DNA from: Actinoalloteichus hymeniacidonis
GTDB taxonomy: Bacteria; Actinomycetota; Actinomycetes; Mycobacteriales; Pseudonocardiaceae
Direction: 5' to 3'
DNA: 64,000 nt
Assembly (NCBI RefSeq): GCF_014203365.1
Contig: NZ_JACHIS010000001.1
Location: 3,720,001 to 3,784,000, forward strand
Part shown: positions 16,299 through 21,852 of the stretch, piece by piece
Position numbering within the stretch: position 1 is the first letter of the stretch
Layout of the letters: each line of letters opens with the position of its first letter
Position numbers and translations under genes: made by a program
Notes under the pieces: generated by a model
Told to the model about the DNA's origin: nothing
Databases searched by the model: none
Seen by the model: the letters and a program-made list of their open reading frames with translations, nothing else

Positions 16299-19200
16299 AT
16301 GTCATCGACACGCCGTCGCGTGCTGGGGTTCGTCCTCGGTGCCGCGCTGCTGGTGCCTTTGGCCGGGGTAGCCCCGGCCGCCGCCCAGCAGTCGGATCCG
16401 CAGCCACCCGAGGAGAGCACCAGGCTCACCGCGGTCCCCGAAGACCTGACGCCGTTCGCCGAGGCCACCGGCGACTTCGAGAAGATCCAACTCACCGAGG
16501 ACGTCGGCGAGCCGATGGCGCTGGCCGTCACACCCGACGGCCGGGTGCTGATGACCGACCGACGCGGCATCATCAAGATCTTCAACCCGGACAGCTACAA
16601 CGTGACGACCGCCGCGGAGATCGAGGTCTACGCGGGCGAGGAGGACGGCCTCCAAGGCATCGCCGTCGACCCGAACTTCGAGGAGAACGGCTGGGTCTAC
16701 ACGTATTACTCGCCGCCGGACCCCGAGCCCCGCAACCGCCTCTCCCGGTTCAAACTCGAAGGCGACGTGATCGATCGCGAGAGCGAACAGATCATCCTCG
16801 AGGTCCCCACCCAGCGCGACCTGTGCTGCCACGTCGGTGGTGACATCGACTTCGACTCGGCTGGCAACCTCTTCCTCTCCACCGGAGACAACACCAACTC
16901 GTGGGCGTCCGACGGCTACACGCCGATCGACGAGCGCGAGGACCGCTCCGCATTCGACGCGCAGCGGTCGTCCGGCAACACCAACGACCTGCGCGGAAAG
17001 CTGCTGCGCATCCACGTCGAGGAAGACGGCAGCTACACCATCCCCGAGGGCAACCTGTTCCCCGAGGGCACCGAGGGCACGCGCCCCGAGGTGTACTACA
17101 TGGGTCTGCGCAACCCGTTCCGCTTCAGCGTGGACCAGGAGACGGACCGGATCTTCCTCGGTGTCGTCGGCCCCGACGCACGGGATGCCAACCCGGACCG
17201 TGGCCCGCACGCCTTCGACGAGGTCTACCTGATGGACGGCCCCGGCAACGGCGGCTGGCCGTTCTGCATGGGCCCGAACGAGCCCTATCGGGACTACGAC
17301 TTCGCCACCGGCGAGTCCGGCGAGGCCTTCGACTGCTCGGCCCCGGTCAACGACTCGCCGAACAACACCGGTCTGACCGACCTGCCCCCGGCGACCCCGG
17401 CGGACATCTACTACACCTACGGCTGCTCCGAGGAGTTCCCGGAGATCCCCTGCGAGGGTGGCAACTCGGCCTTCGGTGGCCCGGTCTACCGCTATGACGA
17501 ATCGCTCGATTCGCCGACGAAGTTCCCCGAGTCCTACGACGGGGCACACTTCTTCTACGAATACTCGAGAAACTTCGTCGCCGACGTCCGCTTCGACGAG
17601 AACGGCGAATACTCCTCCATGACGCCGTTCCTGGAGGAATTGGACTTCAACCAGCCGATGGACATGGAGTTCGGGCCCGAGGGTTCGCTCTACGTCATCG
17701 AGTACGGTGGCGGATTCTTCACGCCCGGCACCTACGCGGGTCTCTACCGCATCGATTACACCGAGGGCGTCCAGTCGCCGGACGTTGCGCTGGCCTCCAC
17801 CGAGACCTCGGGCGAGGCCCCGCTGGAGGTGTCCTTCGACGCGACCGGCACCACCGATCCCAACGGCGGAGAGCTCAGCTACGCCTGGGACTTCGAGGGT
17901 GACGGTGTCAACGACGCCGAGGGCATCACCGGTACGCACACCTACACCGAGAACGGCATCTACAACGCCAAGCTGGAAGTCACCAACTCGGCGGGCCGGG
18001 TCACGGTACGACGAGTGACCATCACGATCGGCAATTACGCCCCCGAGGTCGAATTCACCACCCCCGGCAACGGCGCGTTGTTCGGCTGGGGCGATGAGAT
18101 CGCCTACGACGTGTCGGTCGACGACGTCGAGGACGGCACCATCGGCGATGGCATCAGCTGTTCCGCTGTCACCGTGCAGACGGCATTGGGCCATGACGTC
18201 CACGCGCACCCGCAGAGCAATATGCAGAGCTGCGAGGGCGTGACGACGACCCAGGAGGACGGCGGCCACGGCGGCGAGGCGAACCTCTTCTGGGTTCTGC
18301 GATCCAGCTATGAGGACCGAGGCGCCGAGGGCGTCGCGGCCACCTCGGGCGAACAGGAGATCATCCTGCAGCCCAAGCGCAAGCAGGCGATCCATTTCGA
18401 CGGCTCCGAGGGTGTCGAGGTCATCGACGACGAGGCAGCCGAGGGCGGCCGAGCACTGGGCGGGGTGAACGCGGGCGACTGGGTCTCGTTCTCGCCGTAC
18501 AACCTGGCGATGATCGACTCCGTGCGTCTCGGCGCGGCGGGGTTGGCGGGCGGCACCGTCGAGCTTCGGGCGAACGCCCCCGACGGCGAGGTCATCTCGA
18601 CCACCGAGGTGCCTGCGGGCTCCGGCGACGAGTACGTCGAGCTGGACCCGACCGAGATCACCGCTCCCGAGGGCACCTTCGAACTGTTCGTGGTGTTCGC
18701 CGGCGAGGGTGACGAGGAACTGCTCAAGCTGAACTACCTCGACTTCGACGGTCTCGGTGCGGCAGGCCCCCGGGTGATCCATGCCGAGTCCGATGTCGAC
18801 CGTGGTGCGGCACCGCTCGCGGCGAACCTCACCGTTTCCGGCGAGGCGCTTCCCGAGGGCACGACCTTCTCCTGGGATCTGGGCGATGGCAACACCGCCG
18901 AGGGCGAGTCCGTGTCGCACACCTACGAGGCGACCGGCGAGTACACGGCCACGGTGACCGCGACCGATGCGGACGGCGTGGTCCGAGGGTCCGCCGAGAC
19001 GACGATCGCGGTGCACGAGCCGATCGACGGCACCATCGAGGTGACGCCGGAATCGGCCGAGCTGAACACCCGCGAGCAGCAACAGGTCTCCGCGACCTTC
19101 ACACCCGGTGAGGGCACGCCCGCCGACAGCGCGGTGAGCATCGAGGTCTACCGCTCGTCGCCCGCCAGCGAGCTTCCGCCGGGACACACCGAGGGTGAGC

Positions 19201-21044
19201 CCTACGTCCGAGTCGAGCAGCATGTCGCCGAGCCCGACGAGAACGGTGCGGTCACCTTCGACTACACCAGCACGGTCGGCGCGTCCGACCACATCGTGGC
19301 GTGCCTCGGTTACGGCGGCTCGTGTGTCCGAGGTGAGAGCCTGGTCGTCACCGATGAGGGCCCGGTCAACCTTCGGGAGGACCTCGCCTCCGACAGTGGT
19401 TCGGTGAGCTGGCAGGCAACGCCCGACGAAGAGGGTTGGATCACCCTGTTCGACGGCAAGAGCCTGGCGGGTTGGGACCACGTCGGCCAGGGCGGCTTCG
19501 AGGTGACCGAGGAGGGTCTGCTCAAGCCGCAGACCGGTGGCTTCGGCGTCCTCTACTACGACGACGCCGAGTTCGAGGACTACGTCCTGGAGGCGGAGTA
19601 CGAGAGCTTCAGCGTCAGCGCCAACTCCGGTCTGTACCAGCGTTTCCCGGATCCGGAGGGTGACGCGGGGGTCCCGGGCCGCGAGGGCTACGAGGTCGCG
19701 ATCCTGGACCGCGTCGACAACGTGGTCAACCGAACCGGGTCGATCAACGGGTTGATGGCCGCGAAGTACCTGACCGCCAAGCCGCCGTACGGCGGTTGGA
19801 ACCTCTTCGAGATCGACGTGACGGGCGATCAGTACAACGTCGTCCTGAACGACCGCGTGGTCACCGAGTACACCGGCGATGGCAGCCGGGGTCAGGGTGG
19901 GCACATCGGTCTGGAGAACAGCAACGCCAACCAGCTGCACTTCCGCAACATCCGGATCAAGCCTGCAGACGGCGGCGGCGAGGAGGACACGACGGCGCCG
20001 GTGACCTCGGCCAGCACCACCCCGGGTGAACCCGACGGACAGGACGGCTGGTTCACCAGCAGCCCCGTCCAGGTCACCCTCGAGGCCACCGACGACGACA
20101 GCGGCATCGACACCACCGAATACCGCATCGGCGACGGCGACTGGACCACCTACCAGGAACCCATCACCCTCACCGACGACGGCACCCACACCGTCGAATA
20201 CCGCTCCACCGACACCGCAGGCAACATCGAGGAACCCCAAACCCTCGACATCGCCATCGACACCACCGCCCCCACCACCGAGGCCACCTTCCCCGATGCG
20301 GGCGAGGGCGGCTGGCACGATGGTGAGGTCACCGTGGCACTCGAGGGCATCGACGAGGGCAGCGGCGTCGCTCGGACCGAGTGGAGCCTGGACGGCGGTG
20401 ACTGGACCACCTACGAGGAGCCCGTCACCGTCACCGGCGAGGGCCCGCACTCAGTGCTCTATCGCACCATCGACATCGCGGGCAACATCGAGGCCGAGAA
20501 GGCCGCCACCATCCTCATCGACCCGACCGCACCGACTCTCGTCGTCGCGGGCGTGGCCGACGGACGGGTCTACGGCGACGCCACCGACCTCGTCCTGCAC
20601 TGGCAGGCCAAGGACGCCACCTCGGGTGTCGCCACGACGGTGGGCACGCTCAACGGCGAGGAGTTGGAGTCCGGGGAGTACCTGCCCCTGCACCGGCTTC
20701 CGCTCGGCGTGCAGGAGCTCTCGGTGACCGCATCGGACAACGCGGGTAACACCACCGAGCAGTCGGTCTCCTTCGCCACCAACACGTCCACCAGGGACAT
20801 CAGCCAGTTGATCGACCGGTTCCGCGCCACCAACCGGCTCAGCCTCACCGCCACCATCCAGCTGCGCGAGCAGCTGACCGAGGCACGACTGGCCGAAGCA
20901 CGCGGTGACGACCTCGCCACCATCGACGAGCTCCACTCGCTCCTGGAGGCCATCGGCGACACCACGCTCGTCACCGCCGACGATGTCCGCGAAACGCTGT
21001 CCAGGGACATCCAGGCTGTCATCGACGCGATCGAAGGGGTTTAG
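16299..21044 (+). CDS. Giant secreted sugar dehydrogenase/DUF1080 fusion
   Basis: This is a 1581-aa exported multidomain protein. Residues 1-30 are a signal peptide ending PAAAQQ. About 60-487 form a soluble glucose/sorbosone-dehydrogenase-type propeller: GLQGIAVDPNFEENGWVYTYY, C176-C177-H178 in CCHVGGDIDFD (His aligns with the family's H.GG), and LRNPFRFS. PKD1 is about 490-576, a loop with a DVHAHPQ segment follows, then a CBM6-like sandwich (about 690-820), PKD2 (824-910) and another sandwich. DUF1080 (3-keto-disaccharide hydrolase, laminin-G-like) spans 1045-1225 (WITLFDGKSLAGW). Three OmpL47-like repeats (DTTAPxT) occupy 1229-1497, and a helical tail resembling FIMAH/FIVAR domains 1500-1581. 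Start ATG has GAAAGGA upstream. Oxidising then cleaving extracellular sugars is inferred, not shown. Confidence 0.88.
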   Translation: MSSTRRRVLGFVLGAALLVPLAGVAPAAAQQSDPQPPEESTRLTAVPEDLTPFAEATGDFEKIQLTEDVGEPMALAVTPDGRVLMTDRRGIIKIFNPDSYNVTTAAEIEVYAGEEDGLQGIAVDPNFEENGWVYTYYSPPDPEPRNRLSRFKLEGDVIDRESEQIILEVPTQRDLCCHVGGDIDFDSAGNLFLSTGDNTNSWASDGYTPIDEREDRSAFDAQRSSGNTNDLRGKLLRIHVEEDGSYTIPEGNLFPEGTEGTRPEVYYMGLRNPFRFSVDQETDRIFLGVVGPDARDANPDRGPHAFDEVYLMDGPGNGGWPFCMGPNEPYRDYDFATGESGEAFDCSAPVNDSPNNTGLTDLPPATPADIYYTYGCSEEFPEIPCEGGNSAFGGPVYRYDESLDSPTKFPESYDGAHFFYEYSRNFVADVRFDENGEYSSMTPFLEELDFNQPMDMEFGPEGSLYVIEYGGGFFTPGTYAGLYRIDYTEGVQSPDVALASTETSGEAPLEVSFDATGTTDPNGGELSYAWDFEGDGVNDAEGITGTHTYTENGIYNAKLEVTNSAGRVTVRRVTITIGNYAPEVEFTTPGNGALFGWGDEIAYDVSVDDVEDGTIGDGISCSAVTVQTALGHDVHAHPQSNMQSCEGVTTTQEDGGHGGEANLFWVLRSSYEDRGAEGVAATSGEQEIILQPKRKQAIHFDGSEGVEVIDDEAAEGGRALGGVNAGDWVSFSPYNLAMIDSVRLGAAGLAGGTVELRANAPDGEVISTTEVPAGSGDEYVELDPTEITAPEGTFELFVVFAGEGDEELLKLNYLDFDGLGAAGPRVIHAESDVDRGAAPLAANLTVSGEALPEGTTFSWDLGDGNTAEGESVSHTYEATGEYTATVTATDADGVVRGSAETTIAVHEPIDGTIEVTPESAELNTREQQQVSATFTPGEGTPADSAVSIEVYRSSPASELPPGHTEGEPYVRVEQHVAEPDENGAVTFDYTSTVGASDHIVACLGYGGSCVRGESLVVTDEGPVNLREDLASDSGSVSWQATPDEEGWITLFDGKSLAGWDHVGQGGFEVTEEGLLKPQTGGFGVLYYDDAEFEDYVLEAEYESFSVSANSGLYQRFPDPEGDAGVPGREGYEVAILDRVDNVVNRTGSINGLMAAKYLTAKPPYGGWNLFEIDVTGDQYNVVLNDRVVTEYTGDGSRGQGGHIGLENSNANQLHFRNIRIKPADGGGEEDTTAPVTSASTTPGEPDGQDGWFTSSPVQVTLEATDDDSGIDTTEYRIGDGDWTTYQEPITLTDDGTHTVEYRSTDTAGNIEEPQTLDIAIDTTAPTTEATFPDAGEGGWHDGEVTVALEGIDEGSGVARTEWSLDGGDWTTYEEPVTVTGEGPHSVLYRTIDIAGNIEAEKAATILIDPTAPTLVVAGVADGRVYGDATDLVLHWQAKDATSGVATTVGTLNGEELESGEYLPLHRLPLGVQELSVTASDNAGNTTEQSVSFATNTSTRDISQLIDRFRATNRLSLTATIQLREQLTEARLAEARGDDLATIDELHSLLEAIGDTTLVTADDVRETLSRDIQAVIDAIEGV

Positions 21045-21070
21045 CAGCGAACGCGATCCCGACCGCAAGC

Positions 21071-21134
21071 ACCTTCGAGTGATTCGAAGGTCGTGAGCAG
21101 GCGGGCGGGCCGACGATGAGGTCGGCCCGCCCGC
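21071..21134 (+). terminator. Two hairpins between the DUF1080 genes
   Basis: First, ACCTTCGA pairs with TCGAAGGT (21071-21091, 5-base loop). Second, a perfect 14-bp stem GCGGGCGGGCCGAC (21101-21114) pairs with 21121-21134 around GATGAG, followed by a C/T-rich run. They should terminate or attenuate transcription from the giant gene before the next gene, which starts 35 bp later. Confidence 0.75.
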
Positions 21135-21168
21135 CCCCTCTTCTTTCAGCACAGAAAGGAATCGAGAC

Positions 21169-21852
21169 GTGCGCGATGTACGACGAATGCTCGGTGCTGC
21201 TCTCGCCGGTGTCACCCTGAGCAGCCTGTTCGCGGTGGGAATCGGTGGCTCTGCGAGTGCCTCGTCCACTCCCGAGACGGCGAAGGATCCGGTCGCGCTG
21301 GCCTGCGAGGCTCCGGTCCGGCTGTTCGACGGCAACACCACCGAAGGCTGGTACCAGGCTGGGCCCGGCGGATTCGACGTCGTCGACGGCACCCTGCAGA
21401 GCCGTGATGGCATGGGTCTGCTCTGGTACGACGAGCAGGACTTCGCCGACTACATCCTGATGCTGGACTGGCGGGTCACCGCCGAGACGGACAACTCCGG
21501 GGTCTTCGTCCGCTTCCCCGATCCCGGCGACGACCCGTGGGTGGCCGTCGACCATGGCTACGAGATCCAGATCAACGACAACCCGGCGGGCGACCCGCAG
21601 AAGACCGGTTCCGTCTACAACCACCAGGAGCCGAGTTCCTACCCGTCCAACGAGGTCGGCGAGTGGAACCGGTACGTGATCAAGGTCGTCGGCGAGCGCT
21701 ACCAGGTGTACCTGAACGGCACGCTCGTCAACGACTTCACCAGCACCGACCCCGCCCGGGGCCTGGAGGGTTACATCGGGTTGCAGAATCACGATCCGGA
21801 GACCCGGACCCAGTTCCGCAACATCTGGGTGCAGCCGCTGTGTGAGCAGTAG
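21169..21852 (+). CDS. Secreted DUF1080 (3-keto-disaccharide hydrolase-like)
   Basis: This is an exported protein of 227 aa consisting of a signal peptide (to about residue 32, GGSASASS) and one DUF1080 jelly-roll domain. Hallmarks are VRLFDGNTTEGWYQAG, a NSGVFVRFPDPGDDPW segment, GYEIQINDN, TGSVYNHQEP, GEWNRYVIKVVGERYQVYLNG and GYIGLQNHDPE with a final FRNIWVQPL. Family members cleave 3-keto-glycosides or simply bind glycans. It is a paralogue of the DUF1080 domain in the upstream giant protein (shared FDG...GW, NSG..xRFPDP, GGHIGLEN/GYIGLQN). The GTG at 21169 has AAAGGA 8 bases upstream. Partial readthrough of the upstream terminator may feed it. Confidence 0.85.
   Translation: MRDVRRMLGAALAGVTLSSLFAVGIGGSASASSTPETAKDPVALACEAPVRLFDGNTTEGWYQAGPGGFDVVDGTLQSRDGMGLLWYDEQDFADYILMLDWRVTAETDNSGVFVRFPDPGDDPWVAVDHGYEIQINDNPAGDPQKTGSVYNHQEPSSYPSNEVGEWNRYVIKVVGERYQVYLNGTLVNDFTSTDPARGLEGYIGLQNHDPETRTQFRNIWVQPLCEQ

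Follow-up and report, generated by a model that had tools for sequence, protein, structure and literature searches.

The window analysed here, a 64,000-nucleotide stretch of the Actinoalloteichus hymeniacidonis genome, encodes P0001, a modular protein that joins a propeller of the glucose/sorbosone dehydrogenase (GSDH) type to a DUF1080 domain, and directly after it P0002, a free DUF1080 protein. We tentatively read P0001 as a propeller that carries out redox chemistry, uses its cofactor in an altered way and is partnered by the free hydrolase P0002, its own fused DUF1080 domain being altered. This reading draws on the observed architecture, its recurrence, residue changes, neighbouring genes and a cytochrome fusion in relatives; what we infer is the redox step and where on the sugar it acts, the metal, the cleaving role of P0002 and the substrate. 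Glycans are classically cleaved by hydrolysis, to which a route by oxidation, elimination and hydration has recently been added, and to our knowledge there is no named enzyme for extracellular sugar oxidation in Gram-positive bacteria. The propeller family is a concrete candidate for that role, with an electron path that can be tested.

Architecture and recurrence of the propeller–DUF1080 fusion

Behind an N-terminus that looks like a signal peptide (judged by eye; no predictor was run), P0001 is built of a GSDH propeller, a PKD domain, an Ig-like segment, a CBM6, a second PKD domain, the DUF1080 domain, OmpL47/Big_13 repeats and a FIMAH domain (Table 1); the Pfam domain calls in P0001 and P0002 lie above curated cut-offs. 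A first-pass annotation of the window had described a 1581-aa fusion, with PKD, CBM-like and repeat modules linking the two domains, a spacing of ∼560 residues from the propeller to DUF1080, and a free DUF1080 paralogue next to it, and this observation was confirmed. The GSDH match (residues 71–324) scores 114.3 bits against a cut-off of 25 and covers just profile positions 3–223 of 332, and by profile score and fold the propeller belongs to PF07995. P0002 starts ∼120 bases past the end of P0001 and also has a signal-like N-terminus by eye. Full-query matches to P0001 occur in two sampled genus mates (86% and 88% identity), three other sampled family members match at 58–67% identity over most of the query, and a free DUF1080 gene adjoins the P0001-type gene in all seven such loci read. 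Thus, the fusion is confirmed as genuine and is no assembly accident.

In the host genome, a single 6.3-Mb contig with 99.73% completeness, DUF1080 occurs at four places, namely P0001, P0002 and the loci L005 and L006. At L005:6493-11574 lies a 1693-aa ThuA-GSDH-PKD-CBM6-DUF1080-Big_13-FIMAH protein, preceded at L005:89-6341 by frames for an ABC ATPase and a permease (by reading and profile), a binding protein (by Pfam), a Gfo/Idh/MocA protein and a xylose-isomerase-like TIM barrel. L006:7808-10774 encodes a 988-aa PA14-propeller-CBM35-DUF1080 protein, whose propeller is of a second type with a weak DUF7133 match; this PA14-propeller-DUF1080 fusion was found in 10 marked loci (L006, L047, L050, L051, L054, L056, L057, L062, L075 and L085).

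PF06439 (DUF1080) was matched in 122 of 200 sampled genomes of the family and in 31 of 296 sampled across the phylum. Sixty stretches were selected by DUF1080, and their domains were marked with profiles built from the window, L005 and L006 proteins. The trio of GSDH propeller, DUF1080 and ThuA was seen fused in two orders (ThuA-GSDH-PKD-CBM6-DUF1080 and GSDH-PKD-CBM6-ThuA-DUF1080) and split over neighbouring genes (GSDH-PKD-CBM6 with ThuA-DUF1080, and ThuA-GSDH with OmpL47-DUF1080). To avoid selection by DUF1080, a second sample was drawn by propeller similarity, comprising the best 80 of at least 587 confirmed loci (68 Actinomycetota, 10 Bacteroidota, 1 Rhodothermota and 1 Verrucomicrobiota). 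Here DUF1080 was fused to the propeller in 18 loci, near it in 21 and not in the stretch in 41, the absence counts being upper bounds since contig ends cut some stretches. ThuA was present in 66 of the 80. These data support a link between propeller and DUF1080, whether fused, reordered or adjacent.

Such sets often have genes for a sugar ABC transporter and for a Gfo/Idh dehydrogenase beside them. In the propeller-selected loci, Gfo/Idh was found in 16/18 with fused DUF1080, 14/21 with DUF1080 nearby and 6/41 with none in the stretch, the corresponding counts for the binding protein being 15/18, 14/21 and 12/41; moreover, in L072 a window-type pair itself adjoins an ABC/Gfo/TIM operon. The keto sugar might be made by Gfo/Idh or another system, the propeller being a hydrolase or lactonase-like and not redox, an explanation that we regard as improbable.

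Table 1. Features of P0001, P0002 and the following gene, in window positions
Feature	Position	Strand	Basis
P0001, modular protein, 1581 aa	16299..21044	+	open reading frame
GSDH propeller	16443..17768	+	propeller end ∼residue 490
Cys176-Cys177-His178 of P0001	16824..16832	+	His178 aligns with His144 of soluble glucose dehydrogenase
Stretch with Lys377/Arg406/Arg408 equivalents (P0001 Ser423, Gln452, Met454)	17556..17663	+	alignment
PKD domain 1 (residues 493–576)	17775..18026	+	Pfam
Ig-like segment (residues 578–703)	18030..18407	+	alignment
CBM6 (residues 696–817)	18384..18749	+	Pfam
PKD domain 2 (residues 841–897)	18819..18989	+	Pfam
Fused DUF1080 / 3keto-disac_hyd (residues 1046–1221)	19434..19961	+	Pfam, 111.9 bits against cut-off 26.8
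OmpL47-type/Ig-like repeats (residues ∼1235–1498)	20001..20792	+	Pfam Big_13 at 1257–1322; three OmpL47-type stretches
FIMAH domain (residues 1499–1576)	20793..21026	+	Pfam
P0002, free DUF1080, 227 aa	21169..21852	+	Pfam, 157.5 bits
SIS-domain sugar isomerase-like protein, gene after P0002	22031..22756	+	profile

In two genus mates, L063 and L065, the SIS gene adjoins the P0001/P0002 pair; the four further window-type loci that were read do not show it.

Residue changes in the propeller and in the fused DUF1080 domain

Propeller residues were counted in an alignment of 140 rows, numbered by soluble glucose dehydrogenase (sGDH). Equivalents of the catalytic His144 and of Arg228, Asn229, Gly247 and Pro248 are present in 139, 140, 138, 140 and 139 rows, respectively. 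Both positions preceding the His are Cys in 122 rows, and Asp293 is invariant. In contrast, the residues that contact pyrroloquinoline quinone (PQQ) in sGDH, Lys377, Arg406 and Arg408, are Ser, Gln and Met in P0001. No Lys or Arg occurs in the Lys377 and Arg408 columns in any of the 140 rows, and the Arg406 column holds Arg in 37 and Lys in 5, while R-x-R is visible in the sGDH-family structures 2ism, 2g8s, 3a9g and 1c9u. Thus, the loss of cofactor-site residues that the first-pass annotation had named as evidence against its own proposal is found for the PQQ contacts and not for the His144, Arg228-Asn229 and Gly247-Pro248 set. A full-length GSDH of the same genome (L114:5562-7340) failed as a control, since it likewise has no equivalents of Lys377, Arg406 and Arg408. 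The PF07995 label by itself is no proof of PQQ use. In profile searches of the host genome PqqB had no match and PqqE none above the cut-off (best 71.4 bits against 381.35); uptake of PQQ from outside is possible.

For DUF1080 we compared 117 rows, 8 of the window type (from 7 genomes, L070 and L120 being of one genome) and 109 others. Four residues were followed, a set defined by conservation alone and not by confirmed catalytic role. Outside the window type, the EIQI motif retains its Gln in 109 of the 109 rows and the SxY motif its Tyr in 109; in LQNH, the Gln is retained in 108 rows and the His in 106. Every window-type fused domain (8/8 rows, 7/7 genomes) differs at each of these positions, with Ala for the EIQI Gln, Asn, Ser or Ala for the Tyr, Glu for the LQNH Gln and Ser or Ala for the His; in P0001 the motifs read EVAI, SIN and LENS (Ala, Asn, Glu and Ser). 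The free DUF1080 partner of every window-type row, P0002 included, has the set intact. Thus, P0002 belongs to PF06439 by score and by conserved set, and the fused domain of P0001 by score yet without the set.

In a quick tree of 114 DUF1080 rows the window-type fused domains form one group (Shimodaira–Hasegawa-like approximate likelihood ratio test support 100, stem 1.21), and the free DUF1080s group together with L068, the support for this group being 89 in the full tree and 100 against the fused group alone. For the fused domain, the ratio of nonsynonymous to synonymous substitution rates is 0.088 in the comparison with either genus mate and 0.363 in that with L071, and hence the domain is maintained by selection. 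It looks repurposed, probably for binding or for a different specificity, and P0002 is the probable cleaving enzyme. Nature would here have divided the roles, the fused domain being altered and the free hydrolase intact. As a separate observation, L097:7900-11796 encodes a GSDH propeller with two tandem DUF1080 domains in one chain, of which one lacks the conserved His.

The first-pass annotation had suggested that a single chain performs both steps, so that P0001 would bind PQQ, oxidise a glycan and cleave it with its own fused DUF1080. Both domains do score above the family cut-offs and recur together, and a redox propeller is still favoured; however, the replaced PQQ contacts, the absence from the host of a PqqB match and of a PqqE match above the cut-off, and the changed DUF1080 residues make the complete scheme quite improbable for P0001, for which a propeller chain with a free hydrolase fits better. 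The one-chain idea fits better at L005, because the fused DUF1080 of the 1693-aa protein keeps the conserved set.

Proposed electron exit and keto-sugar machine

Actinobacterial relatives carry four conserved His and two Cys in the segment past the propeller; in P0001 this is the Ig-like segment, where His632, His635, His637, His657, Cys621 and Cys645 are invariant in the 50 rows of alignment A3. These positions perhaps form a metal site. Among the 80 propeller-selected loci, CxxCH past the propeller was found in 10/10 Bacteroidota and in none of the rest, and Pfam Cytochrom_C was matched in all 4 Bacteroidota proteins scanned. The cytochrome c, which occupies the place of the actinobacterial Ig-like segment, points to a redox role of the propeller. 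In one Bacteroidia metagenome-assembled genome (L136:4128-10550), genes for Gfo/Idh, a free DUF1080 and a ThuA-GSDH-PKD-cytochrome c-CBM6 protein adjoin one another.

P0001 could instead be a large secreted glycan-binding scaffold, in which neither the propeller, cofactor-free like that of HHIP, nor the altered DUF1080 is catalytic and activity resides solely in the free DUF1080 or in other enzymes. We consider this rather unlikely, since no fewer than 138 of the 140 rows retain each of the His144, Arg228, Asn229, Gly247 and Pro248 equivalents and the same propeller is fused to cytochrome c in Bacteroidota.

In the redox reading that we prefer, actinobacteria would secrete a machine for keto sugars, of which P0001 is the window-type member. 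Its parts would be a propeller of the GSDH type, a keto-glycoside hydrolase of the DUF1080 family and, in many cases, ThuA; many other versions have a sugar ABC transporter and Gfo/Idh adjoining. The propeller most likely acts as a redox enzyme on a glycan to which CBM6 is bound, and its cofactor would be bound otherwise than PQQ in sGDH. Electrons would leave by way of the Ig-like segment, through cytochrome c in Bacteroidota and a four-His site with a suspected metal in actinobacteria, and P0002 would be the likely cleaver. A broader claim, that ThuA-associated GSDH propellers are a new type of extracellular sugar oxidase which lacks the established mode of PQQ binding, supplies keto-glycosides to DUF1080 and has a built-in electron carrier (cytochrome c or a four-His metal site), is at present doubtful; if true, Gram-positive bacteria would have a secreted equivalent of the LacABC and keto-sugar hydrolase system.

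Comparison with known systems

Compared with the soluble PQQ glucose/aldose dehydrogenases (PF07995; 1c9u, 2ism, 3a9g, 2g8s), P0001 differs by the missing Lys377 and Arg408 equivalents and by Gln for Arg406, the window propeller family by its Cys pair before the His and its invariant Asp293, and the host by having no PqqB match. Another of the closest known systems is the propeller of human hedgehog-interacting protein (HHIP), from which the bacterial rows differ in keeping the His/Arg/Asn set and, in ten cases, in carrying cytochrome c.

By profile, both window DUF1080 domains are members of the 3-keto-disaccharide hydrolase family (PF06439; PMC9007349 for BT2157 and CCNA_01705; PDB 8rr2, 8tda, 8v31), within which P0002 retains the conserved set whereas the domain of P0001 has changed it and is joined to a propeller. 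In the portions of the literature consulted, BT2157 is named a 3-ketotrehalose hydrolase (PMC9007349), DUF1080 proteins are tied to xanthan use (PMC5673643), unrelated Mn enzymes eliminate 3-keto-glycosides (PMC10628242), and three putative DUF1080 sites appear in a figure and are unnamed in the text (PMC9765024).

The LacB-type Gluconate_2-dh3 family (PF13618) had no match in the host genome, and the Caulobacter control was matched. There is a precedent for a DUF1080 protein supplied by an oxidation step outside the cytoplasm, because the lactose 3-dehydrogenase LacABC together with a DUF1080 protein was proposed for lactose use in Caulobacter (PMC9007349). The window system resembles it in this arrangement, but the oxidase candidate here is the propeller.
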